From positions 1 through 64,000 of the forward strand of contig JAUXMZ010000030.1 in assembly GCA_030683105.1 (NCBI GenBank): a stretch of 64,000 nt of DNA. The letters run 5' to 3'. The notes beneath the pieces were generated by a model. The model ran no database searches. It saw only the letters and a list, made by a program, of their open reading frames with translations, and was not told the origin of the DNA. This stretch comes from Burkholderiales bacterium (lineage in GTDB: Bacteria; Pseudomonadota; Gammaproteobacteria; Burkholderiales; SG8-41). The position numbers and the translations under genes are program-made. Below, in pieces: positions 5,356-39,671 of the stretch. How positions within the stretch are numbered: position 1 is the stretch's first letter; every line of letters starts with the position of its first letter.

Positions 5356-5424
5356 GACAGTCCTTGGGGGTCGGGCGGCAGTTAAAAACCCATGACACCA
5401 ATGCTGCCACCCAACCCATGAGTG

Positions 5425-5538
5425 CGGCATCGATGCCAAAGGTCTCGCCAGGCCAACAGGCTAAACGCGCCAAGGCCGAAGCCTAGTGTGTTGACGCGTT
5501 TTCCTCCGGGGACGGAGGACGGCTACTCCCCAATGACA
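5425..5538 (-). promoter_or_regulatory. yybP-ykoY manganese riboswitch
   Basis: The minus strand upstream of the exporter carries the family's conserved blocks: TTGGGGAGTAGCCG near 5520-5533, an ACGCGTCAACACACTA segment near 5484-5499, and GGCGAGACCTTTGGCATCG near 5430-5450. Between it and the start codon a 14-nt helix is possible between 5404-5417 and 5368-5381 (GGGTTGGGTGGCAG with CTGCCGCCCGACCC, two G-U pairs). The helix ends right at the CCCCAAGGA ribosome-binding site, so control of translation is likely. Confidence 0.88.
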
Positions 5539-5588
5539 GCGCGATTTTAGCACGCCGCCGGCGTGCTAAAAATTTAAAAATCATCTAT

Positions 5589-22011: not shown

Positions 22012-22037
22012 CAACGCCAGAAGGCAAGACTGCCATT

Positions 22038-22065
22038 AAAACGCCGCGCGATGCGCGGCGTTTTT
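22038..22065 (+). terminator. Intrinsic terminator after the bktB-Bug pair
   Basis: Stem AAAACGCCGCGC / GCGCGGCGTTTT around GAT, followed by TTTTTG. It sits between convergent genes, 20 nt before the AraC-type gene's stop, and can serve both strands. A near-identical hairpin is at 25000. Confidence 0.92.
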
Positions 22066-22084
22066 GTTTGCGCCCGAAAATATT

Positions 22085-22915: not shown

Positions 22916-22978
22916 TTCGCGAAGATTTTCTGTAAAACATCGAAAGACAGACGATTATAACTCAAGCACAATCCCGGC

Positions 22979-24196: not shown

Positions 24197-24330
24197 GCCA
24201 GGTCCTGTCCTTTTTTCCCGTCCGCTCCGTTGTCTGCTTTGCCGCAACTGCACGCGCGGTTGGTGATGTAATATGCAGTGATCCCCTTTTTTGCAACGGA
24301 CGGCGCTGTGCCGTCACACATGGAGGAAGC

Positions 24331-24897
24331 ATGATGGAAAAACCACTGGGCAACGACGACCTGTCTGAAAAACCCGGCGAGCGGGTGATCGACAAACCCG
24401 AACTTCCCGCAGCCGGCATCACCAACGAGAACGAAGCTTACACCGAGGTCATCTCCGGCCAGATGCAACTCAAGCGCGGCACCGTGGGCCAGTTCGAAGT
24501 GTTCTGCGACGAGCCCGTGCGCATCGGCGGCACCGACAAATATCCGTCGCCAATGGGCTATCTAGCGCTTGCGATCGGCTACTGACTGCTCACCCAGGTT
24601 GCGCGGTACGCGCACATGATGAAGTTGAAGGTGAACGGGGCGAATTGCCGCGTCGTGTTACGCAAGCATCTCGGAGGCTCGGTGTTGAAAGGCACGGTGT
24701 TCAACCGCTGGGAAAGCGTCAGCACGTATCTCAAAGTCGAGAGTGATGCGCCGGCAGACAAGCTCGCGCACCTGATCAAAAACGCCAAGGCCGGGTGTTT
24801 CGCCGAAGGCCTGATCACGCAGCAGGTGCCGCTGCACAGCCACATCGAAGTCAACGGCAAAATGTTTGAGCTTGAAGACAGCGCCGGGAAAACGTAA
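24331..24897 (+). CDS. OsmC family protein, probable selenoprotein (UGA-encoded Sec85)
   Basis: OsmC/Ohr-fold peroxidase-like protein of 188 residues if the UGA at 24583-24585 is read as selenocysteine. The two halves are in one frame: the first ends PSPMGYLALAIGY, then UGA, then LLTQVARYAHMMKLKVNGA. OsmC relatives have a cysteine at this spot (GAC/GYC at the start of the central helix). The second redox cysteine is C156 in KAGCFAEGL. A stem-loop follows at 24600-24614. A GGAGGAAG site lies 4 nt before the ATG at 24331 and 7 nt before a second ATG at 24334, which may be the true start. Likely role: thiol/selenol reduction of organic hydroperoxides. Confidence 0.82.
24600..24614 (+). promoter_or_regulatory. 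Candidate bacterial SECIS element (OsmC-like gene)
   Basis: Stem TGCGC / GCGCA (24600-24604 with 24610-24614), extendable past a bulged T to G24598-C24615, with apical loop GGTAC. The loop begins 20 nt after the UGA and has G in its first positions followed by U, as bacterial SelB-binding hairpins require. Confidence 0.7.
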
Positions 24898-24999
24898 CCG
24901 GTTGCGCCGCAGGAATTACATAATAACGTTACTTAACATATAGTTATGAACAATCTGCGGCGCGGATAGCAAATAAGGACTCCGGCAATCGCTGTAATT

Positions 25000-25027
25000 A
25001 AAACGCCGCGCACTTGCGCGGCGTTTT
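25000..25027. terminator. Bidirectional terminator between OsmC-like and Bug genes
   Basis: Stem AAAACGCCGCGCA / TGCGCGGCGTTTT around CT, with T runs on both sides, between convergent genes. It is nearly the same sequence as the terminator at 22038. Confidence 0.9.
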
Positions 25028-25110
25028 TTGTTTCCGGAAACCGGGTGACGTTGCGGCGGGGCTGATGAGTTCCGCTTAGCTACCGGCGCGAGCCCATGCC
25101 TGTCGGTTGC

Positions 25111-26079
25111 TTAGCGCGGCGTCAGCCCGACATCTCGCACGAGCTTGCCGTATTTGACGTCTTCATTTTTCATGAACTTGTCAAACCATTCGGGCGACTG
25201 GTTGGCGACAATCAGGCCCAAATCGACCAGCTTGCTGTTGATTTCCGGCTGCTGCATCGCGCGGTTTATTTCCTCGTTCAGGCGCTTGATGATCGGGCGC
25301 GGCACGTTAGCCGGCGCCACAAAACCGAACCACCCTCGCATATCGTAGCCGCGCACCACGTCGGCAAAAATCGGCAGCTCGGGCTTGTTGGGCACGCGCA
25401 CGTCATTGGTGACGCCGATCAACCGCAGCTTGCCCGAGAGCACGTGCGTTGAGAGCGAGGTATAAGAACCGATGCCCATCTGCAACTGACCACCCAGGAC
25501 GTCCACCGTGATCTGCGATGCGCCCTTGTAAGGCACATGCAGGAAGGTAAACCCCGCCAGGCGCGCGAGATACTCGAACGCGAGATGCGGATAACCGCCC
25601 TCGCCGTTGGTGCCGAGCGTGAGCTTCCCGGAGTTGGCCTTGGCCCAGGCGATCATTTCTGCCGGTGTCTTGAATGGCACGCTGGTATTGGCGACCACGG
25701 CCAGATAGTTGGTCGCGGCAAGCGAAATGCCCGAGAAATCCTTGAGCGGATCGTACGGCAGCCTGGCGTAGGTATGCGGGGCCACCGACAGGTTGCCGCC
25801 CTGGCCCATGCCGATAGTGTAGCCGTCCGGCGTGGCCTGCTTGAGCAGGGTCAACCCGAGCTGGCCGCTCGCGCCCGGGCGGTTGTCGACGACAAACTGC
25901 TGGCCCATGCGCTCGGAGATGGCGGGCACAACCAGCCGCGTGATGATGTCAGCCGCTTCGCCGGGCGGGAACGGCACGATGATGCGCACCGCCTTGGTGG
26001 GATAGGGTTGCGCAGCAAATGCCCAGGTGGGACCAAACATGGCTGTGAACAAGGCCAGAAACAGCGTCAGGATTCTCAT
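25111..26079 (-). CDS. Bug/TctC family periplasmic binding protein (2)
   Basis: 322 aa with a clear signal peptide (TAMFGPTWAFAAQ). Family blocks are YPTKAVRIIVPFPPGEAADI, QFVVDNRPGASGQLGL and FTFLHVPYKGASQITVDVLG. No membrane components are nearby. It lies downstream of the two carboxymuconolactone decarboxylase-like genes on the same strand (88 bp gap) and could be in their transcript, suggesting import of an organic acid handled by them. The ligand is unknown. Confidence 0.93.
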   Translation of the reverse strand: MRILTLFLALFTAMFGPTWAFAAQPYPTKAVRIIVPFPPGEAADIITRLVVPAISERMGQQFVVDNRPGASGQLGLTLLKQATPDGYTIGMGQGGNLSVAPHTYARLPYDPLKDFSGISLAATNYLAVVANTSVPFKTPAEMIAWAKANSGKLTLGTNGEGGYPHLAFEYLARLAGFTFLHVPYKGASQITVDVLGGQLQMGIGSYTSLSTHVLSGKLRLIGVTNDVRVPNKPELPIFADVVRGYDMRGWFGFVAPANVPRPIIKRLNEEINRAMQQPEINSKLVDLGLIVANQSPEWFDKFMKNEDVKYGKLVRDVGLTPR

Positions 26080-26167
26080 TTATTCATCCTCGATCAGGTC
26101 ATGGTCAAATTGTTGACGATTCAAACACAAAATAAGGTCCCGATCAAATGAGCGGTACAACTTTAGA

Positions 26168-26701
26168 CTATGAGCGCGGCTTTGCACCCAGTGTGCGCGC
26201 GAACACCTGCATCCCGTAGTGAAAGGCGATGAAAGCGCCCAACTCCATGATCTGTGCCTCGGTATAGTGCCGCTTGCCTTCGTCGTAGAAAGCAGCGTCC
26301 ACATTCTCGGGATTGAGGTACATCTCATGCGCGTAACGCAGCGCCCATTTCTCGGCTGCGGTGAAACGCGGATCAGTTTCGAATTTCCCTGATCCGGCGG
26401 CAATCGTTTCCTCGTCAAGTCCCGCCTGCAGGGCTTGCGTCGAGCGCAGGCCGCCGAAGTACGGATCGCCCGCGGTGCGGGCAAGCTGCACCCGGATGAT
26501 TTCCTTTAGCCGGTGGTCCACGCTGCCTTCGGTGTGCGAGAAGAGCAGCGCGCGCAGCAACGCCCTGGCGTATCCAGGCGCGCGCGCCAGGATCCGCGGG
26601 AACAGCGAATCGGGAACGCCCAGCGCTTCGCAGCGCCGGATCAGTTCCAGCAGTTCCGCATCGCGGATCTCCTCGATTTTAAGCGGCTCAATGTTTGCCA
26701 T
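26168..26701 (-). CDS. Carboxymuconolactone decarboxylase (CMD/AhpD-fold) family protein lacking the CxxC
   Basis: AhpD-fold helical protein of 177 aa. It aligns along its length with the Sec-containing neighbour: HRLKEIIRVQLARTAGDPYF against HKLKEIIRVQLSRMASCVYU. Where AhpD-like enzymes have CxxC, this one has D-P-Y-F, so it cannot use the usual dithiol chemistry. It keeps the downstream FTAAEKWALRYAHEMYLNPE block. It may be a non-redox CMD-type enzyme or a structural partner of the neighbour, from which it is separated by 84 bp. Confidence 0.85.
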   Translation of the reverse strand: MANIEPLKIEEIRDAELLELIRRCEALGVPDSLFPRILARAPGYARALLRALLFSHTEGSVDHRLKEIIRVQLARTAGDPYFGGLRSTQALQAGLDEETIAAGSGKFETDPRFTAAEKWALRYAHEMYLNPENVDAAFYDEGKRHYTEAQIMELGAFIAFHYGMQVFARTLGAKPRS

Positions 26702-26736
26702 GAAATAGCGTTGCCTGCACCACGGATAGGTTGTTA

Positions 26737-26812
26737 CTAATCACTAATCACTAATCACTCATGACTCATCACTCATCACTCATCACTAATCACCAATCAC
26801 TCGCGGCGCAGC
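26737..26812. repeat. Heptamer tract, CACTAAT/CACTCAT type
   Basis: About ten near-repeats of a 7-nt unit (TCACTAA, TCACTCA, TGACTCA). It overlaps the 3' end of the selenoprotein gene: that protein's last residues RVIGD and its stop are written in this tract, showing that the repeat has grown into or replaced the original gene end. Confidence 0.8.
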
Positions 26813-27412
26813 AAGCGAACCAGGATCAGCGCCGTAAATGCGCGCCGCTTCATCCTGACTGACCAGGCGGCCGTCGGGCGAGAACATCGGGTAGAACTTC
26901 AGCGTGCCGAAGAACGTGTGATAGCCGATGTTGAAACCGATGAAGGCACCGAGTTCGACGATCTCTTCTTCGCAATAGTGACGGCGCAGCTCGTCGTAAA
27001 ACGCAGCGTCGATCTTGTCCGGATTGAGCGCCATCAGCTCGCTGTAGCGCAGCGCGAGCTTCTCGGCCTCGGTAAAGCGCGAACTCGCCGCGGCATTCGC
27101 GATGCCCTCGTCTATGTCGCCTTCCGTCAACCCCTGCCGCTTCGCCGAAGCGGACCGGACGTTGCCTCAGTAAACGCAGGAGGCCATGCGGGAGAGCTGC
27201 ACCCGGATGATCTCCTTGAGTTTGTGGCTGACGCGGCCGGTATTGAATATCGTGTCCCAGGCGACGAACATCGCCTCGCACAGATCGATATTGTGACCCA
27301 TCATCGCATGGAAACCCGGATCGGGCGCGCGATACTGCAGACATTTGTCGATATAGGGCCGGAGCTTCGTCTTGCGAAGTTCGTCGATATCGAGCATGGT
27401 GATGTTCGGCAT
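26786..27412 (-). CDS. Carboxymuconolactone decarboxylase/AhpD-like selenoprotein (CxxU, Sec82)
   Basis: 208 residues if UGA at 27169-27167 is read as selenocysteine. The halves are in one frame and join as IRVQLSRMASCVY-U-GNVRSASAKRQ, giving a CxxU motif (C79, U82) exactly where AhpD/CMD proteins have CxxC. The following LTEGDIDEGI, RFTEAEKLALRYSELMALNP and EEIVELGAFIGFNIGYHTFF blocks match the paralogue at 26168. A 7-bp hairpin follows the UGA. The gene starts 3 nt after the stop of the Bug remnant at 27416 and has a GGCGGAG site. Likely role: peroxide or disulfide reduction; the substrate is unknown. Confidence 0.85.
27137..27153 (-). promoter_or_regulatory. Candidate bacterial SECIS element (CMD-like gene)
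   Basis: Perfect 7-bp stem CCGCTTC / GAAGCGG with apical loop GGC on the minus strand. The stem begins 14 nt and the loop 21 nt after the UGA. It is the strongest of the three SECIS-like hairpins. Confidence 0.75.
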
Positions 27413-27415
27413 GGT

Positions 27416-27625
27416 TTACTCCGCCTTCATTTTCCTTTCCTTGATCACGCGCGCCCATTTCTTCAGTTCCGAATCCAGGTGCGCCGTGACATCAACGCTG
27501 CCGCCCGGCGGGAACGGCACGATCAGCCGGATGGAGCGGTCGGGATATTTAGCGGTTTGCGAGTAAGCCGGTTGCAACACGGCCGCGCCCAGCAGCATGA
27601 ATGTCGCGCACTGTTTGACGATCAT
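27416..27625 (-). pseudogene. Bug/TctC gene gutted by an in-frame internal deletion
   Basis: An open frame of 69 codons that fuses a normal Bug N-terminus (signal peptide, then YPDRSIRLIVPFPPGGSVDV) to a normal Bug C-terminus (SELKKWARVIKERKMKAE). About 250 central codons are missing; the junction is near 27472-27483. A good GGAGG site and intact signal peptide remain, so it is probably still translated as a short secreted peptide and couples translation into the CMD selenoprotein gene 3 nt downstream. It cannot bind ligand as Bug proteins do. Confidence 0.8.
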
Positions 27626-27800
27626 GAGATGCCTCCTGCAATGTCTGGGAATGACGATGATCCGTCGTTTCTTTTTTAGCCAGCCGAACGCGCAATGCGG
27701 ACGCGTCGCCTCCTGCCGCTATGATAACAGGAAGGGAAAACGGGTTTGCGGCCCGGGATGCCGGGCCGGCAGCCAGCGCTGATGGCGCGCGGCGCGGCGC

Positions 27801-27878
27801 TTAACCCAGCGTGTAGGCTTCGTGTATCGCGCTTTGCAAGCCGCCGATCAGGAATCTGCGTCGATTGATGTTGTTCAA
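27801..27878 (-). pseudogene. Possible remnant with a twin-arginine leader
   Basis: From a TTG at 27878 preceded by GGGAG, the minus strand reads LNNINRRRFLIGGLQSAIHE and then AYTLG and a stop. The NRRRFLIGG part looks like a Tat signal sequence, and the rest of the protein is missing. It lies upstream of the gutted Bug gene and may be another deletion remnant. This rests on 25 codons only. The rest of 27626-28173 shows no other supportable gene. Confidence 0.35.
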
Positions 27879-28173
27879 GCCGATCTCCCTGTTGCAGCGC
27901 CAACCGTTAATGGCCGTGAGCGCCTGGTCCCCGGTATTCCAGGGCAATGAATGTAAATTTATGTCAGCTCGAAGCCCGGATCTGGAATTCAGGCTATTCA
28001 GCCCGGCTTGATCCGACCCGTCCGGCGATCAGGCCTCCGGTGGCGGTCATGGCAGGCGATTTTTCGCTTGCGATTTTTCCGGACTTCGGCGCACAAAATT
28101 CGAGGCCGGCGTGGCAGCCGATGTTTTATACTCTATGTGCCGCGGCTTGAATTCCGATTCCCCTCCCCGAACC

Positions 28174-29616
28174 ATGCTCAATGACAAACGCAAACTGATC
28201 ATCACGCTGGCCCTGCTGCTGGGCTCGGGTTTCGCCATGACGTCGCTGGTCAATTATTACGTGTCCAAAGCGGCGATCCGCGAGTCGATCGTCGCGAACG
28301 AGCTGCCGCTTACTTCGGACAACATCTATTCCGAAATCCAGAAAGACCTGGTCCGCCCGATCATCATCTCGTCGATGATGGCGAGCGACACCTTCCTGCG
28401 GGACTGGGTGCTGGCCGGCGAGCAGGACGTGGACAGAATGACCCGCTTCCTGCACGAGGTCAAAGCGCGTTACGGCGCGTTCACCAGCTTTTTTGTTTCC
28501 GAAAAAACCCGCATTTACTACCAGACCGAAGGCGTGCTCAAGCGCATCCGGGATTCCGATGCGCGCGACGCCTGGTATTTCAGGGTGCGCACCATGAAAT
28601 CGCCTTATGAAATCAATGTGGACCCCGACCTCGCCAACAAGGACGCGCTGACGATTTTCATCAATTACCGCGTGTTCGATTACGACGGCCGCTACATCGG
28701 CGCGGCTGGAGTCGGGCTGACTGTGGACGCGGTGCGCAACCTGATCAGGGCTTATCAGGACCGCTACCAGCGCAACATTTATTTCGTCGACAAGCAGGGC
28801 GGGATCCCGGTATTCGGCAGCGATTCATCGATTACCGCAACCAATATTCATGCCATGGAAGGCCTGGGCGCCATCGCCCCGCGCATCCTGCATGAGGGCG
28901 CCGGCAATTTCCAGTACAACAGCGGCGGACTCGACTACCTGCTCAACGTGCGCTTCATCCCCGAGCTCGACTGGCACCTGTTCGTGGAGCGGATCGAAAA
29001 CGAGGCACTCGCAAGCATACGCAACACGCTTTATCTCAATCTCGCGATCTGCATCCTGATCACCGCCATCGTATTGCTGGCGACCAGCTTCACGATCAAC
29101 CACTATCAGAGCAAGTTGGAGAAAATGGCGACGACCGACAAGCTGACCGGCCTCGTGAACCGCCAGGCTTTCGATCTGCTCGTGCAGCAGGTGCTGCGCG
29201 AGCAATCACGCGCCGGGACCTCTTTGCTCGCGATCATGATCGACATCGATTATTTCAAGAAAATCAACGACGATCTGGGCCATCTCGCCGGCGACAACAT
29301 CCTGCAGCAGGTAGCCAGGGTCATCGAAAATACGGTGCGCAAGTCGGACATCGTCTGCCGCTGGGGCGGCGAGGAATTCCTGGTCGTGCTCAAGGACACC
29401 GCCGCAACGCAGGGCCGGCTGCTGGCCGAGAAAATCCGCAGCGCAGTCGAGGCGGGCGCATTCCGTTACAAGGACGAGAAGGTAGTCGTATCCGTCAGCC
29501 TGGGCATCGCGGCGTACCGGGAAGGCGAAGCTCCGGACCAGCTGATCTACCGCGCCGACCAGGCGCTCTACGCAGCCAAGGCCGGGGGCAGAAATCGCGT
29601 GCACTCGGCCGGCTGA
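28174..29616 (+). CDS. Membrane diguanylate cyclase with periplasmic sensor (Cache-like) domain
   Basis: Makes cyclic di-GMP. 480 aa from the ATG at 28174 (MLNDKRKLIITLALLLGSGF). Transmembrane helices at about 8-28 and 285-308 flank a periplasmic domain of about 255 residues with the Cache-like stretch DARDAWYFRVR and YIGAAGVGLTVDAV. The GGDEF domain starts TDKLTGLVNRQAFD. The active site is GGEEF (398-402), preceded five residues earlier by an inhibitory RxxD site (RKSD). It is predicted active and feedback-inhibited. The extracellular signal is unknown. Confidence 0.93.
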   Translation: MLNDKRKLIITLALLLGSGFAMTSLVNYYVSKAAIRESIVANELPLTSDNIYSEIQKDLVRPIIISSMMASDTFLRDWVLAGEQDVDRMTRFLHEVKARYGAFTSFFVSEKTRIYYQTEGVLKRIRDSDARDAWYFRVRTMKSPYEINVDPDLANKDALTIFINYRVFDYDGRYIGAAGVGLTVDAVRNLIRAYQDRYQRNIYFVDKQGGIPVFGSDSSITATNIHAMEGLGAIAPRILHEGAGNFQYNSGGLDYLLNVRFIPELDWHLFVERIENEALASIRNTLYLNLAICILITAIVLLATSFTINHYQSKLEKMATTDKLTGLVNRQAFDLLVQQVLREQSRAGTSLLAIMIDIDYFKKINDDLGHLAGDNILQQVARVIENTVRKSDIVCRWGGEEFLVVLKDTAATQGRLLAEKIRSAVEAGAFRYKDEKVVVSVSLGIAAYREGEAPDQLIYRADQALYAAKAGGRNRVHSAG

Positions 29617-29882
29617 TCCCGGTTTTGATCGAGCAGACGCTGCGCCATCAGCATTGTGTCAGGCATCCGCACTGGCGCAAGCCGCTGCCAGACTGCCGTA
29701 TCATCCGGCCGGTCTCGACATCCCGGGAGTTGCGTATGAAATTACCGCGCGCGCTTGCCGCCAGCGCCGCTGATCGGCTCGTCCGGTCTATCCATGAAAG
29801 GCGACAGTAAAGATATGTCAAGGCCGGTTATGTTAAGCGCCAGCTGCTATCCTCAAGACATATCAAGGCATGGTGTAAGCAT

Positions 29883-30926
29883 ATGATGTTCCGGAAATCG
29901 ATTGACGCCAGCCGCGCGCTATTCTGGCGCGGCGCACTGGCGACAGCATTAATGATATTGACAGCGGGCTGCGCACAACTGGGCGGGATTTTCGCGCCCA
30001 CTGCGCCCTTCGTGTCCGGAGAGTGGGCGGAATTGCTGAAAGAGGTGCGCGTCTACGAACGCCGCATCGGCTTTGCCGATACTGACAATTTCGCCGACCT
30101 TACCCAGGATTACGAGGCCTTCGTGTTCTGCGGCGTGGCCTCGCGTCTCGTGCTGCCGTATTCCTACCAGGACCCGGCCATCACCTGGCGCGAATCGCAG
30201 ACCGAGGAGGAATGCCGCGAGCACGGCAGGAATGCCGACGTCTACTACGGTGCGGTGGAGGCCTGGGGCGAGGTCGGCACGCCGGTCACCCCCGCCATGA
30301 TAACCAGCAAGCTCGACCGTTTCCTCTACCTCGTCATACACGAGGACTGCCATGACCAGTTCAAACTGCCTTATGGCATCGAGGAAGCACTGTGCGACCT
30401 GATTACCTTCAAAGGCATGGCCGAATTCACCCGGGCCAGGTTCGGCGCATTCTCGATCGAGCACAGATCGATACTGCGTTATGCCGATGCGCAATCCAGG
30501 ATCGCCCGCGCCACCGTCGCCACCTACACCCGGCTCGAAACGCTCTACGGGCGCCATGCACGCAGGGAACTCACCGCCGAAGCGCTGTTGCAGGAACGCG
30601 CCGCGATTTACAAGGCGGCAGAAAAGCCGCTTGCCTGGACCCAAGGGGAACTGACCAACGTGGCTCTTGCCAACCACATGACCTACAGCCGCCATTACCC
30701 GTTTCTGGAAAGCGTATTCGATGTGCTGGGACGTGACCTGCCGCATACCATCGCGTTCTTCCGCCACGTCGACAAAACCAAACCGGAACCCGAGACCGTG
30801 ATGAAGCAGAACCGCCTCAAAAAAGGCAGCGTCGAATTTGTGCGCGCCTACGAAGTTGCCGTGATGGAGACCATACGCAAGGCGCTGATCGGGCACATTG
30901 ATGCTGGCACGGCGGCTGTCAAGTGA
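29883..30926 (+). CDS. Putative HExxH-containing lipoprotein
   Basis: 347 aa with a signal peptide and lipobox (LTAGC, Cys about 29). A possible zinc-protease motif HEDCH (153-157) is followed by FKLPYGIEEALCDLI, where an acidic residue could be the third ligand. The layout resembles putative aminopeptidases of bacterial lipoproteins, but I do not recognise a definite family. The protein is helical and rich in charged residues after the motif. Two ATGs (29883, 29886) are possible starts. The 266 bp before it hold no clear feature beyond two copies of an ATATGTCAAGG-like sequence near 29812 and 29866. Confidence 0.65.
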   Translation: MMFRKSIDASRALFWRGALATALMILTAGCAQLGGIFAPTAPFVSGEWAELLKEVRVYERRIGFADTDNFADLTQDYEAFVFCGVASRLVLPYSYQDPAITWRESQTEEECREHGRNADVYYGAVEAWGEVGTPVTPAMITSKLDRFLYLVIHEDCHDQFKLPYGIEEALCDLITFKGMAEFTRARFGAFSIEHRSILRYADAQSRIARATVATYTRLETLYGRHARRELTAEALLQERAAIYKAAEKPLAWTQGELTNVALANHMTYSRHYPFLESVFDVLGRDLPHTIAFFRHVDKTKPEPETVMKQNRLKKGSVEFVRAYEVAVMETIRKALIGHIDAGTAAVK

Positions 30927-31056
30927 GGTAGTGGTGAACCGCAGGCGCGCGACGCACTCGATCAGGTCTAGTGCAAGAATGTCCAGGCCGTATCTTAATA
31001 ACCCTCCCCGGCTGGGTATACTATAGCCCTTGCCCGACCCATACCGGAGCCCGACG

Positions 31057-31962
31057 ATGAGTGCAGTCCCGCAGTCACATACCCAGTATGTCTATGATTT
31101 TGCCACGCTCGACCGCGTGCCCGACGGGCCGACCAGCGTCAAAGTAGCGGCCAGGCGTTTACTTTCGGGCCCAAGTCTGACGACCGGCAAGTCCTCGACC
31201 GTGGGGGCGGTGCTCTCCGGCGCTCACATCATCTGCACGCTGGGCACCCAGTTAAAAGGCTCGGGGGCCAAACCCCACACGCATCCCAACGAGCAGTTCA
31301 ATTTCATCCTGCAGGGCACGATGACAGGCGACATCGAAGGCGACCGCGTATTCGCGCCCATATCAAATATTCTGCACACGCCCGGCATGGCGGTACATAC
31401 CGGGCTCGCGTGCCCCGAGGAGGATCTGGTATTTCTGGCAATCAAAGACTCGCGTCACGGCATCGTCGGTCCGCCGGTCGACGGCAAATACGACGGGCCG
31501 AATTTCCTTCCTGGTTTCGGCACTCGCGCGCAAGAACCCAAGCAGAGCACCGCTGCGATGATGGCCGAGGCGAAGCGTCATCCCGGACCCGGCAAGCGTT
31601 ATGTTTACGACATGGCAGACGACACCGATACGTACTCCGGCTCCGCGAGTGCGGCGGTCACGCCCGGCGCAAAGCTCGCATTACCGAGCGGCATCAGCGG
31701 CAAGCTGCTCAGTGGCGAGTTGCTGCACGTCAGCGTGCTGCGATTCGCACCCGGCGCGACGATCCCGGAACATGTCCACGGCAACGAGCAGTTCACTTTC
31801 GTGGTCGAGGGCGGGCTGGACGCGAGCCTTGCAGGTCAAACGCTGCATGTCAGCGAGCGCTGCCTGCTGCATGTGCCCCCGGGCATGCCCCATACGCTCA
31901 CGGCCCCGCGCGGTGCGCTGGTGATCATCGCGCAGGACAACCGCCACACCTTTTCGGCGTAG
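31057..31962 (+). CDS. Tandem-cupin (bicupin) protein
   Basis: 301 aa from the ATG at 31057, chosen for its GGAG site (7 nt spacing) and because upstream residues do not look coding. Two cupin beta-barrels follow each other. The first has GAKPHTHPNEQFNFILQGTM and the second GATIPEHVHGNEQFTFVVEG, each with the HxH...EQF metal-binding pattern. It has no signal peptide. Bicupins include oxygenases and decarboxylases; the reaction here is unknown. A TATACT -10-like box lies at about 31016. Confidence 0.85.
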   Translation: MSAVPQSHTQYVYDFATLDRVPDGPTSVKVAARRLLSGPSLTTGKSSTVGAVLSGAHIICTLGTQLKGSGAKPHTHPNEQFNFILQGTMTGDIEGDRVFAPISNILHTPGMAVHTGLACPEEDLVFLAIKDSRHGIVGPPVDGKYDGPNFLPGFGTRAQEPKQSTAAMMAEAKRHPGPGKRYVYDMADDTDTYSGSASAAVTPGAKLALPSGISGKLLSGELLHVSVLRFAPGATIPEHVHGNEQFTFVVEGGLDASLAGQTLHVSERCLLHVPPGMPHTLTAPRGALVIIAQDNRHTFSA

Positions 31963-31970
31963 GCCACCGT

Positions 31971-32933: not shown

Positions 32934-33210
32934 CGGCTCCTCCTTTGTTATCCCGGCTTTCTCCCTGAACGGGTAGGAACATGCGCAGACATGTCCCCCG
33001 CAGATCAGGTTGGAAGGATGAAGGATTAAGTGATGCTCGGCAAGCCCGGGACCTGTTCACCAATAGCGCGTGAGGCGTTTACCCAGATGTAACGGCGGCA
33101 ACACTCTGTTACGAAATGCCCGGGATTGAGCGCAACGTATCGCAGTCCAACACGTTATAGATGATGAACGGCGCGCGCCAGTGTGCCTGTCACAATAACG
33201 AGGAGACACC

Positions 33211-34695
33211 ATGAAAAATCGAAAATTGATTGATGCGCTAGGCACGACACTGCTAGTGCTGCCGGTTGTCATATCGCTCGTGCACGCACCGGTCGCCCCG
33301 GCACAGACTTACGCGCCGCCGCCTCATGAAAATGCGCAGGCCCACGCGGTATTCTCGCAGCAAGACCTCGACCAGATGCTGGCACCGATCGCACTTTATC
33401 CGGACCCGCTGCTGTCGCAAATCCTGATGGCGGCCACCTACCCGCTCGAAGTGGTGCAGGCTGCGCGCTGGTCGCGGGCCAACCCCGGCTTGCAGGGCGA
33501 CCAGGCCGTGCGTTCCGTCGAACAGAAACCCTGGGACCCCAGCGTCAAGTCGCTGGTCGCGTTCCCGCAAATATTGACCATGATGGACGAGAGGCTCGAA
33601 TGGACCGAACGCCTCGGGGATGCGTTTCTCGCCCAGGAATCGCAGGTCATGGATAGCGTGCAGCATTTGCGGCAAACGGCTTACGCGGCAGGCACGTTAC
33701 GATCGGATGACCAGATTCGCGTTGTATCGCAAGGGCCAGCCATCGTGGTCGTGCCGGTTAATCCGCAAGTCATTTACGTCCCTTACTATGATCCGAAGGT
33801 TGTCTATGGCAACTGGTGGTGGCCGGAGCCGCCCGTCTATTGGGCGCCGTGGCGCAGCTATCATCCGCCGCGTCCGGGCTTTACCCTTGCGTGGGGTAGC
33901 GGCATACCGGTCGCAAGCGGCTTCTTTTTCGGTGCGTTCGACTGGCCGCGCCGTCAGACGCGCATCGTCAGCGTCAACACCTATTATTACACCCGGACCG
34001 TCGTGATAAACCGGCCGGCGGACGTCCACAGCAATGCTGTCGTGCGCCACGCGAATACGGCACCGGGCATCTGGCAGCACAATCCGGAGCACCGCCGCGG
34101 CGCGCCGTACCGGCATGCTGACGTGCACACTCGTTTTATACCCGAAAACGCGCAGATGAAGCAGCGGGCAGTGCAGCCTGCCATCCCACCGCAGGCACGC
34201 ACCATTGAACACGGCAGGAATACGCCACGCGATTCACAGACTTATGTTGCAGGGCAGGCTACGATAGCCGCGCCGCGCGCCGGAATTCAGCAGGAAACGC
34301 GGTCCGAAATCCGCAGCGATGATCGCCGGCGCCAGGAAGTTACACCGCGGAATGAAAACCGAAATGAAGGCGCCCGCCGGCGCGAAGCACCGCCAGCGGT
34401 CCGCAGCGAGCGTCCGAAGACGCAACCGCGTGTAGAGCAACATGCTTCGCGGCCCGCTCCGGTTCCGCAGTTCCGCAAGGAAAGCGCCGTGCGCACGGCA
34501 CCGGCGGCACCCGAGCCTCAACCGCGCAACGAAGCCTCTCGCGTGCGTACGCCGGAGCCGGCGACCACGGCGCATCCCGCAGCCAACGCACGACAAAACC
34601 GTCCAGCCAGCGGGCCCGGGCCGCGCCACGGCGATGGCAGCGAGCCGCGTAGCCGCGGCAGGGTTAATGGAAAGGTGGATCTGGTGGCTAGGTAA
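33211..34695 (+). CDS. DUF3300 domain protein, secreted
   Basis: 494 aa. A signal peptide (about 1-32, ending VAPAQT) precedes the DUF3300 domain (about 45-260), with QQDLDQMLAPIALYPDPLLS and ILMAATYPLEVVQAARW at its start and a Tyr/Trp/Pro-rich end (IYVPYYDPKVVYGNWWWPEP). The C-terminal 230 residues are low-complexity, rich in Arg, Pro, Ala and Gln. The domain's function is unknown. The 3' end overlaps the convergent cyclase gene by 8 nt. An AACGAGGAGACACC leader gives a strong SD. Confidence 0.85.
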   Translation: MKNRKLIDALGTTLLVLPVVISLVHAPVAPAQTYAPPPHENAQAHAVFSQQDLDQMLAPIALYPDPLLSQILMAATYPLEVVQAARWSRANPGLQGDQAVRSVEQKPWDPSVKSLVAFPQILTMMDERLEWTERLGDAFLAQESQVMDSVQHLRQTAYAAGTLRSDDQIRVVSQGPAIVVVPVNPQVIYVPYYDPKVVYGNWWWPEPPVYWAPWRSYHPPRPGFTLAWGSGIPVASGFFFGAFDWPRRQTRIVSVNTYYYTRTVVINRPADVHSNAVVRHANTAPGIWQHNPEHRRGAPYRHADVHTRFIPENAQMKQRAVQPAIPPQARTIEHGRNTPRDSQTYVAGQATIAAPRAGIQQETRSEIRSDDRRRQEVTPRNENRNEGARRREAPPAVRSERPKTQPRVEQHASRPAPVPQFRKESAVRTAPAAPEPQPRNEASRVRTPEPATTAHPAANARQNRPASGPGPRHGDGSEPRSRGRVNGKVDLVAR

Positions 34696-35290
34696 AATCG
34701 AGGCGCGAGTCGCGCAGCACGCCGAACAACCGGATTGGCGCCCTGCGCGGAATTTCCAGCGCCGGCAACTCCTCGGCCTCAAGCGCAAATCCGGTTTCCG
34801 CAAGCGCGTCCATGAACATTTTGGACATCACCATCTCGCCGGCCCGCGCACGGTGTAACAAACGGTCGGCGACACTCACGCTATCGCCAATAATGAGCGG
34901 CTGGCCGGATATCGGGCCGTCCGCGATGCCGATGACCGCTTCGCCGGCATGCAATCCTATCGCTACCGCCGCGCGTATGCCGTACTCATTTGCCCACGAT
35001 TCTTCGAAAACCGTGAAGTCGCGCTGGATTTCCTGTGCCGCCTGCATGGCATGCTGCGCATGGCTTTCCCCCGAAAAAGAAGCCATCAGGGTATCGTTCA
35101 ACACGTTGCGCACGGTGCCGCCGTGTCGTTCGACCGCTTCCCGGACCAGGGCGAAAAACTCGGAAACCCGTGCCAACACTATTGACGGCTGGAGCATTTC
35201 GGACGTGCGCGTGAACCCGCTCGTCTCGGCGAACAGAATCACCACCGGTACACGCTCCAGCTCAGTCGTGTTTAATTCCGACTCTGCCAT
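34688..35290 (-). CDS. Stand-alone class III adenylate/guanylate cyclase-like domain
   Basis: 200 aa, essentially one cyclase homology domain. The first metal-binding block reads FAETSGFT where active enzymes have FxDxxGFT, so the first catalytic Asp is Glu. The second is in NVLNDTLMASF, with Asp kept. Later blocks IGLHAGEAVIGIADGP and IIGDSVSVADRLLHRA match the substrate and transition-state regions. It may be a weak, specialised or non-catalytic cyclase. There is no membrane or sensor domain. Confidence 0.8.
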   Translation of the reverse strand: MAESELNTTELERVPVVILFAETSGFTRTSEMLQPSIVLARVSEFFALVREAVERHGGTVRNVLNDTLMASFSGESHAQHAMQAAQEIQRDFTVFEESWANEYGIRAAVAIGLHAGEAVIGIADGPISGQPLIIGDSVSVADRLLHRARAGEMVMSKMFMDALAETGFALEAEELPALEIPRRAPIRLFGVLRDSRLDFT

Positions 35291-35367
35291 TCCCTTGTTC
35301 CTGTCGTAAGACCATCAATCATGAATTGCGCCAGACGCTTTATTCTATACTTTCCTTTATACGCGAA

Positions 35368-36363
35368 TCACTGTCTGATACCCAGCCCCGTTGCCAGTTT
35401 GTAGTACAGCTCGTACTGCTCCCGCACGTACTGATCGGACTCAGCCGGTGAGCGTATCGCGGCAATGCCGCCGATGCGCGCGTTGCCGGCCTGCCAGTCC
35501 GGGTCCTTGGCCAGTTGCGCGAACACGCCTGCCCACTTGTTGACGATGGTTTTGGGCATGCCGCCCGGCCCCATCAGCGCCGTCCAGCCCACGATTTTCT
35601 CCATGTCGGGATAGCCGGCCTCGCGCGCGCTTTGCACGCCGGGCAGATCGTCGATCCGGGTCGGGGTCACGAACAGCGCGCGCAGCCGGTTCGCCTTGAC
35701 CTGCGGGATCACGGTGGGTGCGTTGTTGCAGGCGAAATCCACCTGACCGCCGAGTACCGCGACCGTGACTTCGCCGCCGCCCTTGTAGTGGATGCCGACC
35801 GCGTGGTCCTTGGTCAGCCCTGCCACGGTCATGAAGTACTGCGCCGCCATATTTTGGCTGGTGGCGACGCCGGCGGTGGAAAAGTTGAGCTTGCCCGGCT
35901 GCTTTCGCAACGCGCCGACAAGGTCCTGCGCCGCGCGGTACGGCGACTCGGTGCGCACGAAGCAGATATAGGGATTGAGTTCGATCAGCGAGAGCATGGT
36001 GAACTCATCCCATTTGTAGCCGAGCTTGGAATCGACCGCCGGCAGGATCGCGTGCGTGGCGATGCGCGCGACCAGCAGCGTGTAGCCGTCGGGCACGGCG
36101 TTCTTCACCGCCATGGCGCCGATCGCGCCGGAGGCGCCAACCCGGTTCACCGACACGATGGGCACGTTGTTGAGATATTTCGAGCCCACCTGCGCGACGT
36201 TGCGACCGGAGAGGTCCGAGTCGCCGCCGGCGGCAAACGGGATCACGAACATGATGGGTTTGGTTGGATACTGCGCGGCGGGCTGTGCTGCGTAAGCGCC
36301 GGAAATCGAAGCCAAGACAGCGACGGCAAACAGCGCGAGTACTTTTGTTTTTGCATACATCAT
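35368..36363 (-). CDS. Bug/TctC family periplasmic binding protein (4)
   Basis: 331 aa from the ATG at 36363, preferred over in-frame ATGs at 36381/36378 because a GGGGGA site lies 7 nt before it. The signal peptide ends ISGAYAAQ. Family blocks are YPTKPIMFVIPFAAGGDSDL, VPIVSVNRVGASGAIGAMAV and AVGIHYKGGGEVTVAVLGGQ. It lies alone between the cyclase and GST genes. A perfect 25-nt palindrome (36383-36407) sits just before its ribosome-binding site. Confidence 0.92.
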   Translation of the reverse strand: MMYAKTKVLALFAVAVLASISGAYAAQPAAQYPTKPIMFVIPFAAGGDSDLSGRNVAQVGSKYLNNVPIVSVNRVGASGAIGAMAVKNAVPDGYTLLVARIATHAILPAVDSKLGYKWDEFTMLSLIELNPYICFVRTESPYRAAQDLVGALRKQPGKLNFSTAGVATSQNMAAQYFMTVAGLTKDHAVGIHYKGGGEVTVAVLGGQVDFACNNAPTVIPQVKANRLRALFVTPTRIDDLPGVQSAREAGYPDMEKIVGWTALMGPGGMPKTIVNKWAGVFAQLAKDPDWQAGNARIGGIAAIRSPAESDQYVREQYELYYKLATGLGIRQ

Positions 36364-36382
36364 TTTATTTTCCCCCATCAAT

Positions 36383-36407
36383 CAACGGGGTCAGACTGAC
36401 CCCGTTG
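36383..36407. repeat. Perfect palindrome in the leader of the fourth Bug gene
   Basis: CAACGGGGTCAG, a single central A, then CTGACCCCGTTG: 12 paired bases in each arm. It lies 19 nt upstream of the start codon, in the transcribed leader if the promoter is further up. It could be an operator, a REP-like unit or an RNA hairpin. The rest of the gap to 36718 holds no supportable gene. Confidence 0.8.
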
Positions 36408-36718
36408 AAAGGATTTTGCGGACGCCCGTTCGGGCACAGCCATTATTACGGCGACCTGATCTCCCCCTGATTGGATGACACTTGAATAAGCGTCACTCTT
36501 AGCGATTCTGCACTGCTGTGTTTTGATGTCAAGCAGCTTTGGAGCCGGATGAATGCACGCCACGGTGTGCCACCCCGCTTGCGCGATCATTGTTATGCGC
36601 GGCTCGGTCCCGCCAAAGATTTAGCAAAAATATGTATATATACAGCAACTTGCGGCACACCTGCCAACGCGACTCACCTCGCGTAAACTCCCGTATTTCC
36701 CTGACTTAGGAGAGCTCC

Positions 36719-37333
36719 ATGCTGCGCATCTACGGTTCCGCCAATTCCCGCGCCCTGCGCGTCATCTGGATGGCGGGAGAACTCGGCATACCCTACGAGC
36801 ACAAAGACTGGCTGCCGCGCTCGCCGGAAACCCTCACGCCGGAATTCCACGCGCTCAATCCCAACTATCGCGTGCCGGTGATCGACGACGACGGGTTTAT
36901 CCTTTCGGAGTCGATGGCGATCAATTTCTATCTCGCGAAAAAACACAAGAGCCCGCTCTTGCCTGCCGATCTCAAGCACGAAGCGCTCGCGCTGCAGTGG
37001 AGCTTGTGGGAGACCGACCGTCTCGACCGCCAGATCGTCAACTACGTCCGCCATGTCAAGGCACTGCCCGAAGCCGAGCGCAAGCCGGCTGTAGCTGAGG
37101 CGGCGTGGAAAGAAATCGTGCCGGCGTTCGACGCGCTGGAGGCCGCGCTCAAGAAATCCGAGTGGCTCGCCGGGCCTGCGTTCTCAGTCGGCGACCTGAA
37201 CGTCGCCTCCGCGCTGTATCGTGCGCTGGTTATCGATCTTGGCAAATGGCCGCACATGCAGGCCTGGTTCAACCGCTGCTGGGCGCGCCCGGCCGCGGTC
37301 AAGGCGCGTGCGATGCGGGAGACGCCGGCCTGA
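36719..37333 (+). CDS. Glutathione S-transferase family protein
   Basis: 204 aa with a thioredoxin-fold N-terminal domain (MLRIYGSANSRALRVIWMAG; catalytic Ser/Asn region at 7-10), the glutathione-binding NYRVPVIDDDGFILSESMAI loop (cis-Pro at about 54, ES at about 66-67) and an all-helical C-terminal domain. It is cytoplasmic and would conjugate or isomerise electrophiles, or reduce peroxides with glutathione. A TTAGGAGAGC SD precedes the start. It lies 261 bp upstream of the selenoprotein peroxiredoxin-like gene on the same strand; that gap shows nothing else. Confidence 0.9.
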   Translation: MLRIYGSANSRALRVIWMAGELGIPYEHKDWLPRSPETLTPEFHALNPNYRVPVIDDDGFILSESMAINFYLAKKHKSPLLPADLKHEALALQWSLWETDRLDRQIVNYVRHVKALPEAERKPAVAEAAWKEIVPAFDALEAALKKSEWLAGPAFSVGDLNVASALYRALVIDLGKWPHMQAWFNRCWARPAAVKARAMRETPA

Positions 37334-37594
37334 ACGGTTGTTGAATGGCGGCGCGCCCTCCGTCTCCAGACCGGCAAGCAGCGGCCAGGAATAAGCCGGG
37401 CGATGCCATGCGAGGGTTCCTGCGCGACGCTCGCGAGCGTGCGCACCACCATCGAATCAAATCCATGACGCCGGCAGGGTATTGCGCTGTTTCAGCTTTG
37501 CCGGAAACAGGTGTATTTTATTGCGCAGGTCACGCACAATACCTGCCACGCTCCGGATCGCGTCCGCAGCCTGTCCATACAGGGGGAGAACTCG

Positions 37595-38071
37595 ATGTCG
37601 AAAAAACTGGGGATCGGCGACACGTTCCCGAACCTGACGCTCAATCTCGTCAAAGGCGGCACGATCAATTTGCCGGGCGGCATGGGTTCGAAGTACGGGG
37701 TGATCCTGTTTTATCGCGGGCACTGGTGACCGTACTGCCGCCGGCAGTTGGTCGGCTTCGAAAAGCTCAAGTCTGAACTGGACGCCGTTGGCGCCAGTGT
37801 CATTGCAGCCAGCGTCGATCCCATCGACAAGGCGGGCGAGGTGGCGGCGGAAGTGTCGTTTCCCGTGGCATACGGCGTCGCGCGCGAGACCGCAGACATG
37901 CTCGGCTCCTGGTGGGAGGAGCGGCGCAGCATCATACAACCCTCCGAGTTCGTCACCGATGCCGGCGGGAAAATCATTGCATCGAGCTATAGCGACGGCC
38001 CGATTGGACGCGTCGACGCTGCCGACGTAATCAAGGTCATCAACTTCCGTGAGGCACAATTGCGAAAATAG
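37595..38071 (+). CDS. Peroxiredoxin-like (AhpC/TSA-type) selenoprotein, UxxC (Sec45)
   Basis: 158 residues if the UGA at 37727-37729 is read as selenocysteine. The frame is continuous: VILFYRGHW, UGA, then PYCRRQLVGFEKLKSELDAV. Relatives have the redox motif HWCPYCRRQL, so Sec45 replaces the first cysteine and C48 remains (UxxC). Thioredoxin-fold features follow: VIAASVDPIDKAGEVAAEVS and FPVAYGVARETADMLGSWWE. A GGGGGAG site precedes the ATG. A stem-loop at 37740-37756 fits a SECIS. Likely a cytoplasmic peroxidase or thiol-disulfide oxidoreductase. Confidence 0.87.
37740..37756 (+). promoter_or_regulatory. Candidate bacterial SECIS element (peroxiredoxin-like gene)
   Basis: Stem GCCGGC / GGTCGGC region: six pairs (37740-37745 with 37751-37756, one G-U) closing an AGTTG loop. 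The loop starts 17 nt after the UGA and contains the G-U typical of bacterial SECIS loops. Confidence 0.7.
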
Positions 38072-38099
38072 CGGGCCCTAATTCGTAAAGGAGCGAACG

Positions 38100-39311
38100 A
38101 TGACGCGCAGCGCAGCAAGACCGGCAGTCCGCACGCAGCCCCAGGCCACGGCCCCGCGGGCATCCCGTTCACAGCCGGCACGCCGAGTGTTGCTGATGGT
38201 CGCCACGCGCAAAGGCGCGTGGCTCTATCAGAGCGATGCGTCAAGAAAAACCTGGCGCGCCGACGGGCCGCATTTTCTCGGCCACGTCGTCAGCCACCTG
38301 ATGCTCGACCCGCGCGATCGAAGGACGCTGCTGGCGGCGGCGAAGACCGGCCACCTCGGCCCGACCGTGTTCCGTTCCACCGATCTCGGTCGCACCTGGA
38401 AGGAAGCCGCGCGGCCGCCCGCGTTCGCGAAGGCGCCGGCCGGTGAGCAGGGCCGCGCGGTCGATCACACGTTCTGGCTCGCGCCGTCTCCCGCCTCCGA
38501 GCCCGGCGTCTGGTACGCGGGGACCTCGCCGCAGGGACTGTTCCGCTCCGAAGACGGCGGCGCCACGTGGGCACCGTTCTCCACTATCAACGACGATCCG
38601 CAGTACCGCGAATGGATGGGCACGGCGCAGGACGGCACGCCGGATGGACCGAAGCTGCATTCGATCATTGTCGATCCGCGCGATCCCAATCATCTGTATT
38701 TCGGGATGTCGGGCGGCGGCGTGCATGAGACGGTCGATGGCGGCAAGACATGGCGCGTGATGATCAAGGGGATGGATGTCGTGGAGGGATTCGGTTTCGA
38801 TCCCGCGAAACCCACGTTCCACGATCCGCATTGCCTGCGCATGTGCCCGAGCAACCCGGATCGCATCTACCAGCAGAACCACTGCGGCATCTACCGGCTC
38901 GACCGCCCTTCGGACACCTGGGTGCGCATCGGCAAAAGCATGCCCAAGAAAGTCGGCGACATCGGTTTCCCGCTGGTGGTGCATCCGCGCGACGACAACA
39001 CCGCGTGGGTGTTTCCGATGGACGGCACCGCCGTGTGGCCGCGCACGAGCCCCGAAGGCAGGCCCGCGGTCTACGTGACGCGCAACGCCGGCAAGACCTG
39101 GCAGCGGCTCGCCGCCGGCCTGCCCGAGGCCCAGGCGTGGTGGACCGTGAAGCGCCAGGCGATGACGGCAGACGAAGCGGATCCGGTGGGCCTGTACTTC
39201 GGCACGACCAGCGGCGAGCTGTGGATGAGCCGCGACGAAGGCCGCCGGTGGACCTGCATCGCGCAGCACCTGCCGGAGATCTACGCCGTGGAAGCGGCCC
39301 AACTGGGCTAA
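38100..39311 (+). CDS. Sialidase-like/BNR-repeat beta-propeller protein
   Basis: 403 aa with no signal peptide. Several Asp-box (S-x-D-x-G-x-x-W) style repeats are visible: YQSDASRKTW, RSTDLGRTWKE, RSEDGGATW, ETVDGGKTWR, VTRNAGKTWQ and MSRDEGRRW. These mark a six- or seven-bladed propeller of the exo-sialidase/photosystem-stability-factor type. Such proteins are often annotated as glycosyl hydrolases without evidence; catalytic residues are not evident. It is 28 nt after the peroxiredoxin-like gene, so cotranscription is likely. Confidence 0.82.
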   Translation: MTRSAARPAVRTQPQATAPRASRSQPARRVLLMVATRKGAWLYQSDASRKTWRADGPHFLGHVVSHLMLDPRDRRTLLAAAKTGHLGPTVFRSTDLGRTWKEAARPPAFAKAPAGEQGRAVDHTFWLAPSPASEPGVWYAGTSPQGLFRSEDGGATWAPFSTINDDPQYREWMGTAQDGTPDGPKLHSIIVDPRDPNHLYFGMSGGGVHETVDGGKTWRVMIKGMDVVEGFGFDPAKPTFHDPHCLRMCPSNPDRIYQQNHCGIYRLDRPSDTWVRIGKSMPKKVGDIGFPLVVHPRDDNTAWVFPMDGTAVWPRTSPEGRPAVYVTRNAGKTWQRLAAGLPEAQAWWTVKRQAMTADEADPVGLYFGTTSGELWMSRDEGRRWTCIAQHLPEIYAVEAAQLG

Positions 39312-39380
39312 ACGCGGCCAACAGCGAATGGAAGAAGTGGACATGCACGTGCAATGGGTAAGCCGTCCCGGCACTCGCGA

Positions 39381-39408
39381 TTCACGAATCACGAATCACG
39401 AATCACGG
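39381..39408. repeat. TTCACGAA/TCACGAA short tandem tract
   Basis: Four copies of a 7-nt CACGAAT unit right before the ThiS/MoaD-like gene. Confidence 0.75.
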
Positions 39409-39413
39409 CCTTT

Positions 39414-39671
39414 ATGAAGGTGCTCATCCCCAGCGCACTGCACTCATACAGCGGGGGCAGCGTAGCCGAGGCGAACGGTGCTACGCTCGCCGCCGTCCTC
39501 GCCGACCTCGACCGGCTATACCCCGGGATACGTTTTCGCATGATCGACGAGCAGAACCGAGTACGGCGCCACATCCGCATCTTCATCAATGGCGAACAGG
39601 TGCACGACTTGACGCAGCCGCTTATTGCGTCCGACGAGGTGGTCATCGTGCAAGCGCTCAGCGGCGGCTGA
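39414..39671 (+). CDS. MoaD/ThiS family ubiquitin-like sulfur carrier
   Basis: 85 aa from the ATG at 39414. Beta-grasp sulfur-carrier protein ending in the required C-terminal Gly-Gly (QALSGG), which is thiocarboxylated to deliver sulfur. Inner blocks VLADLDRLYPGIRFRMID and RIFINGEQVHDLTQPL match MoaD-like proteins. It follows the beta-propeller gene by 102 bp; this pairing recurs in other proteobacteria to my knowledge, but its meaning is unknown. No moaE or thiG is nearby, so it may serve another pathway. Confidence 0.85.
   Translation: MKVLIPSALHSYSGGSVAEANGATLAAVLADLDRLYPGIRFRMIDEQNRVRRHIRIFINGEQVHDLTQPLIASDEVVIVQALSGG

Follow-up and report, generated by a model that had tools for sequence, protein, structure and literature searches.

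Selenocysteine codons, hairpins and decoding machinery

The window analyzed here is a stretch of 64,000 nucleotides from a Burkholderiales bacterium (contig JAUXMZ010000030.1, positions 1 to 64,000 of the forward strand). Within 13.7 kb, and on both strands, it carries three genes, OsmC-U, CMD-U and Prx-U, whose reading frames are intact once an internal TGA is read as selenocysteine (Sec). Their products have three different folds: OsmC, carboxymuconolactone decarboxylase (CMD)/AhpD, and AhpC/TSA-type peroxiredoxin (Prx). A CMD paralogue lacking the redox residues, CMD-DxYF (DxYF hereafter), lies beside CMD-U. The features of the locus, including hairpins that resemble Sec insertion sequences (SECIS), are as follows.

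24331..24897, plus strand: OsmC-U, predicted OsmC-like selenoprotein, motif UxxT (ULLT), matching Pfam OsmC and NCBIfam NF041052
24583..24585, plus strand: putative Sec codon (TGA) of OsmC-U, TGA in 27/27 aligned sequences
24600..24614, plus strand: SECIS-like hairpin of OsmC-U, from pairing across the alignment
24975..25029, plus strand: terminator-like hairpin with a T run between OsmC-U and CMD-U, read by eye
25111..39671, no strand: block with CMD-U, DxYF and Prx-U, missing at the corresponding position in relative G047 (locus L095)
26168..26701, minus strand: DxYF, Cys-less CMD paralogue that follows CMD-U directly, with Cys replaced by Asp and Sec by Phe
26786..27412, minus strand: CMD-U, predicted CMD/AhpD-fold selenoprotein, motif CVYU
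27138..27152, minus strand: SECIS-like hairpin of CMD-U, from pairing and covariation in the alignment
27167..27169, minus strand: putative Sec codon (TGA) of CMD-U, TGA in 59/60 loci, the sixtieth locus stopping short of the codon
37595..38071, plus strand: Prx-U, predicted AhpC/TSA-family Prx-like selenoprotein, motif UPYC
37727..37729, plus strand: putative Sec codon (TGA) of Prx-U, TGA in 29/29 sequences
37740..37756, plus strand: SECIS-like hairpin of Prx-U, from pairing and covariation in the alignment

Profile searches place the three proteins in their families. OsmC-U matches Pfam OsmC at 42.5 bits (cut-off 27.5) and the NCBIfam model NF041052 (OsmC_like_Se) at 160.6 bits (cut-off 95), CMD-U matches PF02627 at 35.6 bits (gathering cut-off 23), and Prx-U matches PF00578 at 72.5 bits (gathering cut-off 26). 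DxYF scores 22.4 bits against PF02627, slightly below the cut-off of 23, and 23 bits in a six-frame search. The NCBIfam models for selenium-containing CMD/AhpD proteins give CMD-U 17.4 bits (NF041047, cut-off 110) and 58.8 bits (NF053654, cut-off 310), and every NCBIfam model matched by CMD-U or Prx-U stays below its cut-off.

The TGA codons are conserved. Among distinct sequences in the fetched loci (tblastn, E <= 1e-12), TGA occupies the aligned site in all 27 OsmC sequences (52–99% identity) and all 29 Prx sequences (33–99% identity). In the CMD family TGA is found in 61 of 122 sequences, 59 of them at 58% identity or more and two being paralogues near 35%; the 61 sequences with another codon are all below 45% identity and comprise 52 DxYF/DxYS paralogues and nine CxxC proteins. 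Prx-family proteins with Cys (LHCPIC) occur in loci L170 and L173 at 24–26% identity, outside the tblastn threshold. When 84,980 species genomes were scanned with peptide patterns lying outside the Sec site, 60 CMD-U loci emerged, and all 59 that reach the codon have TGA. Within a set of 74 genomes from the window's family, relatives of OsmC-U occur in 44, with at least one TGA in every row except one post-codon fragment and a second stop in several rows. Close CMD-U orthologs are present in 14 of the 74 (TGA in all 13 that cover the codon) and Prx-U relatives in 16 (7 close, our own genome included, and 9 distant only), where 17/17 rows have one TGA. Distant CMD paralogues (~35% identity) in G018 and G009 (L040, L045) have TGA at the same CxxU site, and six more CMD rows at 29–36% identity hold one TGA somewhere in the row.

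At E-values up to 10 no Rfam SECIS model matched the window, and the hairpins were instead tested by alignment. Each UGA is followed by a hairpin that has a G in its apical loop and whose stem starts 13 to 17 bases after the U. Pairing is kept in 99.7% of cells for CMD-U (58 distinct sequences, 15 double-changed cells) and in 98.2% for Prx-U (28 sequences, 24 double-changed cells), levels reached by 0 of 500 shuffles in both cases. The OsmC-U hairpin is paired in all cells of 21 distinct sequences; it is nearly invariant, with a single double-changed cell, and 30 of 500 shuffles match it. These counts include related sequences, and each stem was picked on the same alignment as was used for testing. 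A synonymous-codon folding test gave a clear signal for OsmC-U (mean z -1.79, 26/27 below -1) and weaker ones for CMD-U (-1.18, 33/59) and Prx-U (-0.87, 11/28).

The source genome encodes the decoding machinery. Contig C56 carries, in a row, selA (584.1 bits), selB (421.2 bits), a thioredoxin-reductase-like flavoprotein and tRNA-Sec; selD scores 409.9 bits and its own gene contains one TGA. The flavoprotein between selB and tRNA-Sec (L094:11814-12725) reaches 242.5 bits against a thioredoxin reductase cut-off of 343.45. Across genomes, selB is over its cut-off in 78 of the 120 searched, our own included; the 13 family relatives that carry CMD-U all have it above that level. Taken together, the conserved UGAs, the hairpins and the machinery provide strong sequence evidence that all three genes encode selenoproteins, in agreement with an initial annotation of the region. 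Family-wise searches of the genome found OsmC in 4 places and CMD in 10, each with one TGA-containing copy, and the further Sec gene that turned up was selD, in a search limited to OsmC, CMD, molybdopterin enzymes and selD. The four Sec genes identified (the trio and selD) are thus a count from selected families and not a genome total. No Sec formate dehydrogenase was seen among the nine molybdopterin oxidoreductase matches in the genome, none of which has an internal stop.

Genomic context of CMD-U, Prx-U and OsmC-U

CMD-U has a nearly fixed partner. Of the 52 CMD-U loci that have 700 bp or more of downstream sequence, 51 have DxYF as the next gene on the same strand; L185 is the exception. 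All 52 extracted DxYF sequences have Asp in place of Cys, and either Phe (48) or Ser (4) in place of Sec. The distances of CMD-U and DxYF are correlated (r 0.842, 51 pairs, 0/999 permutations), a figure to which common ancestry alone contributes. A thioredoxin gene lies directly upstream of CMD-U in 28 of the 60 loci (two were Pfam-checked, PF00085 at 85–90 bits), and in Polynucleobacter rarus the genes for thioredoxin, CMD-U and DxYF touch or overlap one another. Rhodoplanes tepidamans, like P. rarus an isolate, has these three genes as well. In the window itself CMD-U has no thioredoxin gene beside it; a thioredoxin encoded at 893-1219 does not have the operon-type C-terminus. Three of the loci (L139, L141, L146) have record titles, Bordetella parapertussis or Klebsiella pneumoniae, that look mislabelled, as their contigs appear to fit the environmental group.

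Prx-U is the second recurring neighbor. Among the 49 CMD-U loci with enough downstream sequence to show it, five have Prx-U directly after the CMD pair (L140, L150, L152, L155 and L179, all Burkholderiales), and 8 of the 60 have it anywhere in the fetched flank. In a sample of 399 genomes of the order, our own included, CMD-U is found in 6 genomes, Prx-U in 9 and both in 6 (Fisher 1.6e-11, not corrected for phylogeny). The five other genomes with CMD-U thus all have Prx-U: the genes are adjacent in G073, G124 and G207, 6.7 kb apart in G081 and on different contigs in G244. The Sec machinery is close by in some of these loci. selA or selB is present in the fetched flank of 12 of the 60 CMD-U loci (the selB of L140 and the selA of L150 were Pfam-checked); selB-selA lies tail to tail just beyond Prx-U in L140, L150 and L179, whereas seven alphaproteobacterial loci have it upstream. 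Of the 8 other Prx-U loci in the order sample, 4 have selB alongside. The linked loci are partly related and the counts are not independent events, although the linkage occurs in both classes with different gene order.

OsmC-U behaves differently. The order of the window's genes from 16277 to 52068 is largely preserved on one contig of G047 (L095). Only about 0.1 kb separates OsmC-U from an EI24 gene there, and the 25.1-39.7 kb block is missing, as are the genes at 21040-24196 and a few more; CMD-U and Prx-U of G047 are located on other contigs. About 4.8 kb of different genes stand in place of the block in G012 (L104), and in G004 CMD-U and OsmC-U lie on the same contig 120 kb apart. From the order kept in G047 and the arrangements in G012 and G004, we conclude that OsmC-U is a backbone gene and that the CMD-U/Prx-U block is a lineage-specific insertion or rearrangement beside it, in either direction. 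Four relatives (G005, G013, G035 and G047) have all three genes, each time on different contigs. Contig ends set the separation of CMD-U and Prx-U at no less than about 17 kb in G005 and only 4-6 kb in G013, G035 and G047, so that in the last three fragmented assemblies linkage of the trio or the pair is only partly constrained. The G013 contigs with Prx-U (L079) and CMD-U (L082) have about 1.5 kb in common, in segments of 88-98% identity that may be repeated genes. An MFS gene adjoins OsmC-U in G037 and G016 as well (L109, L111; 72-77% identity), in the opposite gene order to the window (22979-24897).

The initial annotation had suggested that the clustering may mark a selenium-dependent peroxide-defence set, which would make the three genes one island selected as a trio. 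All three proteins do have small thiol-redox folds, and a genome with few Sec genes would seldom have three of them within 13.7 kb by chance: in simulations with 10 Sec genes per genome this happened in 0.4% of cases, and with 20 in 3.6%. These figures overstate the significance because the window was chosen from a scan and the four Sec genes identified need not be all that the genome has. The three genes do not travel together in relatives, however. OsmC-U was found near CMD-U or Prx-U in no other genome among the 74 of the family and the 399 of the order sample, within the limits set by broken assemblies. The 21 fetched OsmC-U stretches, which total 333 kb and come only from the window's family, contain neither CMD-U nor Prx-U, and OsmC-U is absent from the flanks retrieved for the 60 CMD-U loci. 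Nine other order-sample genomes have OsmC-U, none of them among the five others with CMD-U. Together with the scattered copies, the G047 arrangement and the terminator-like hairpin between OsmC-U and CMD-U (a Leu_leader match covering this hairpin in the Rfam scan scores below the gathering score), these observations make a three-gene island very improbable. What survives of the idea of a common purpose is the CMD-U and Prx-U unit seen elsewhere, of which OsmC-U does not appear to be part. selA and selB are likewise absent from the 21 OsmC-U stretches, a control that decides nothing because all of these come from one family in which the CMD-U/Prx-U stretches also score 0/18. Overall, the comparative data suggest that CMD-U and Prx-U are probably functionally related and that OsmC-U is a neighbor.

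A candidate thiol/peroxide relay and its alternatives

AhpD-fold proteins with a CxxC motif receive electrons from dithiol carriers and then reduce AhpC-type peroxidases. Predicted models of CMD-U (pLDDT 78) and DxYF (pLDDT 91) match AhpD-family structures, the best matches of CMD-U being Bmp8 and AhpD-type proteins. The full gene set seen elsewhere consists of thioredoxin, CMD-U (CxxU, AhpD fold), the redox-dead DxYF and Prx-U (UxxC), with selB-selA beside it in some genomes. As a thioredoxin gene precedes CMD-U and a gene for an AhpC/TSA-family protein follows it, the simplest reading is an electron path from thioredoxin through CMD-U to Prx-U. We favor, with moderate confidence, a model in which CMD-U and Prx-U both belong to a single selenium-dependent thiol/peroxide relay and OsmC-U is a separate neighbor. 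In this model thioredoxin would reduce the selenenylsulfide of CMD-U, CMD-U would reduce Prx-U, and the Prx-U selenol would reduce a peroxide or related electrophile. DxYF keeps the fold and lacks both redox residues, and may thus act as a structural or docking subunit in a hetero-oligomer with CMD-U. The window's separated copies of CMD-U and Prx-U may still cooperate.

Several observations weigh against this relay. In the window's own family, 13 relatives have CMD-U, 6 have a close Prx-U and 4 have both, always on different contigs; CMD-U occurs without a close Prx-U in 9 relatives, and Prx-U without CMD-U in 2 (84% and 93% complete). Neither an operon-type thioredoxin nor selA/selB was found in the 18 family stretches around CMD-U or Prx-U. 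selB is over its cut-off in only 38 of the 44 family genomes with OsmC-U relatives, being absent from G011, G018, G043, G049 (99% complete), G063 and G064. Among solved structures, the debrominase Bmp8 comes closest to CMD-U in sequence, and AhpD-type proteins rank behind it. CMD-U keeps Glu67 and the CxxU pair and has Arg86 in place of the catalytic His of AhpD (H137, a residue whose mutant is named in the structure search); it thus departs from the AhpD pattern of CxxC with Glu/His, which leaves the proposal that it works like AhpD unaffected. The idea that Sec accounts for this Arg was dropped, since nine distant CxxC paralogues also have it. Finally, the genes that precede CMD-U in marine Rhodospirillales encode HMGL-like proteins (8 loci, by sequence cluster) and cupins (6 loci) and not thioredoxin, assignments that were Pfam-checked in L159 only, and this context could mean a metabolic enzyme. 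Loci with both cupins and an HMGL-like synthase before CMD-U are L157, L158, L159, L161, L163 and L165. The window's own two-cupin gene has no ortholog in the 60 CMD-U loci, where other cupins recur.

The same facts can be read as CMD-U/DxYF being a selenium-dependent metabolic enzyme, similar to a dehalogenase, hydrolase or decarboxylase, which thioredoxin only resets and for which Prx-U is an optional companion. Bmp8 as the best match in both sequence and fold, the marine HMGL-like and cupin genes and the nine family genomes without a close Prx-U would all fit, but an optional companion does not readily account for Prx-U in all five other order-sample genomes with CMD-U or for its position directly after the CMD pair in five Burkholderiales loci. 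We regard this explanation as rather unlikely. The co-location of CMD-U, Prx-U and selAB elsewhere might instead reflect joint transfer of Sec genes with their machinery and no shared function, which would be favored because Sec genes survive only in Sec-decoding hosts; Sec-decoding genes and fdhA also often share an operon (PMC1794560). DxYF (51/52) and an ordinary thioredoxin (28/60) need no Sec machinery, however, and are still attached to CMD-U, and joint transfer alone therefore appears improbable.

The selenoprotein families themselves are known. In PMC1088965, OsmC-like (UxxT), CMD/AhpD-like (CxxU) and Prx-like (UxxC) selenoproteins were already tabulated in 2005, and PMC13188914 also gives the OsmC-like UxxT motif. 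OsmC-U shares this motif with the OsmC-like family from the Sargasso Sea (NF041052), scores above its cut-off and is an ordinary member with no essential difference. CMD-U shares its Pfam family and CxxU motif with the AhpD-like 2/CMD selenoproteins (PF02627) of the GOS and Sargasso data, and differs in the fixed DxYF, the dedicated thioredoxin and the selAB coupling, which the portions of those reports consulted do not mention. Prx-U agrees in family (PF00578) and motif with Prx-like UxxC selenoproteins; it differs in its linkage to CMD-U and, for some genomes, selB. One GOS read pairs AhpD-like 2 with Prx-like 1 (PMC2398784, repeated in the 2026 review PMC13188914).

Three known arrangements invite comparison. 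AhpD restores oxidised AhpC, according to the abstract of PMC10460364. An AhpD-fold reductase of the CxxC type and an AhpC/TSA-family partner are shared with that relay, here through genomic linkage, whereas Sec in both proteins, Arg in place of His, the Cys-less CMD subunit and the thioredoxin in the operon are different. With the fdhA-selAB operons described in PMC1794560, the present loci share a selenoprotein gene near the Sec machinery, but the partner here is a small redox unit and no Sec formate dehydrogenase was seen in the source genome. The SAO and Tso operons also hold several Sec genes per unit, and their protein families differ from CMD-U and Prx-U, as far as PMC13188914 shows. 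A unit of thioredoxin, CMD-U, DxYF, Prx-U and selAB was not found in the literature searched, which included the accessible portions of PMC1088965, PMC2398784, PMC13188914, PMC1794560 and PMC5029168. Judged by that literature, three features appear to be new: DxYF as a fixed partner, a dedicated thioredoxin and selAB coupling.

Bacterial Sec decoding is often tied to formate dehydrogenase (PMC1794560). We suggest tentatively that an unnamed alpha- and betaproteobacterial relay, from thioredoxin to CMD-U with its obligate redox-dead subunit and on to Prx-U, might be the cargo that keeps Sec decoding in genomes without a Sec formate dehydrogenase; if so, it would explain why the relay genes lie near selB-selA in some genomes. 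A small-protein relay linked to selAB would then be a second, testable reason to keep the Sec trait. The module would also be a clean system, with two Sec sites in series and, next to one of them, a fixed paralogue that is catalytically dead. The interest of the locus lies in this CMD-U/Prx-U module rather than in a three-gene island, and the analysis separates a probable functional link (CMD-U with Prx-U) from an unlinked neighbor (OsmC-U).

Neighboring genes and minor features

All genes named in the initial annotation are present, as judged by Pfam, including a GST, a two-cupin protein, a ThiS-like protein, the Cys-less CMD paralogue and three TctC/PF03401 binding proteins; a fourth TctC-like gene lies at 21040-22011. 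The remaining neighbors are an MFS transporter, a GGDEF protein, a putative aminopeptidase, a DUF3300 protein, a cyclase-domain protein and a BNR-repeat protein. The suggested tie to breakdown of imported aromatic or organic acids probably reflects background. Across 40 fetched stretches (39 from relatives and one from our own genome, all chosen for Sec genes) the density of TctC-like genes is 1.13 per 10 kb, compared with 0.63 in the whole window and three in the 15.3 kb of the annotated interval, and the TctC genes are therefore probably background and were rejected as functional partners. One exception is G064, where Prx-U adjoins the ortholog (76%) of the TctC gene at 35368-36381. The GST, BNR-repeat and ThiS-like genes were also rejected as partners of Prx-U, as they are not beside it in six family relatives.

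A 69-codon frame at 27416-27625 on the minus strand stops 3 bases before CMD-U and has no Pfam match; by eye it resembles a TctC-type signal region fused to a TctC-type end, as would follow from an internal deletion. Short tandem repeats, also read by eye, are found at 26735-26800 at the CMD-U stop codon (TCACTAA/TCACTCA) and at 39375-39405 before the ThiS-like gene (TTCACGAA). Outside the interval, a yybP-ykoY manganese riboswitch is present at 5368-5543 on the minus strand (76.2 bits, gathering score 45).

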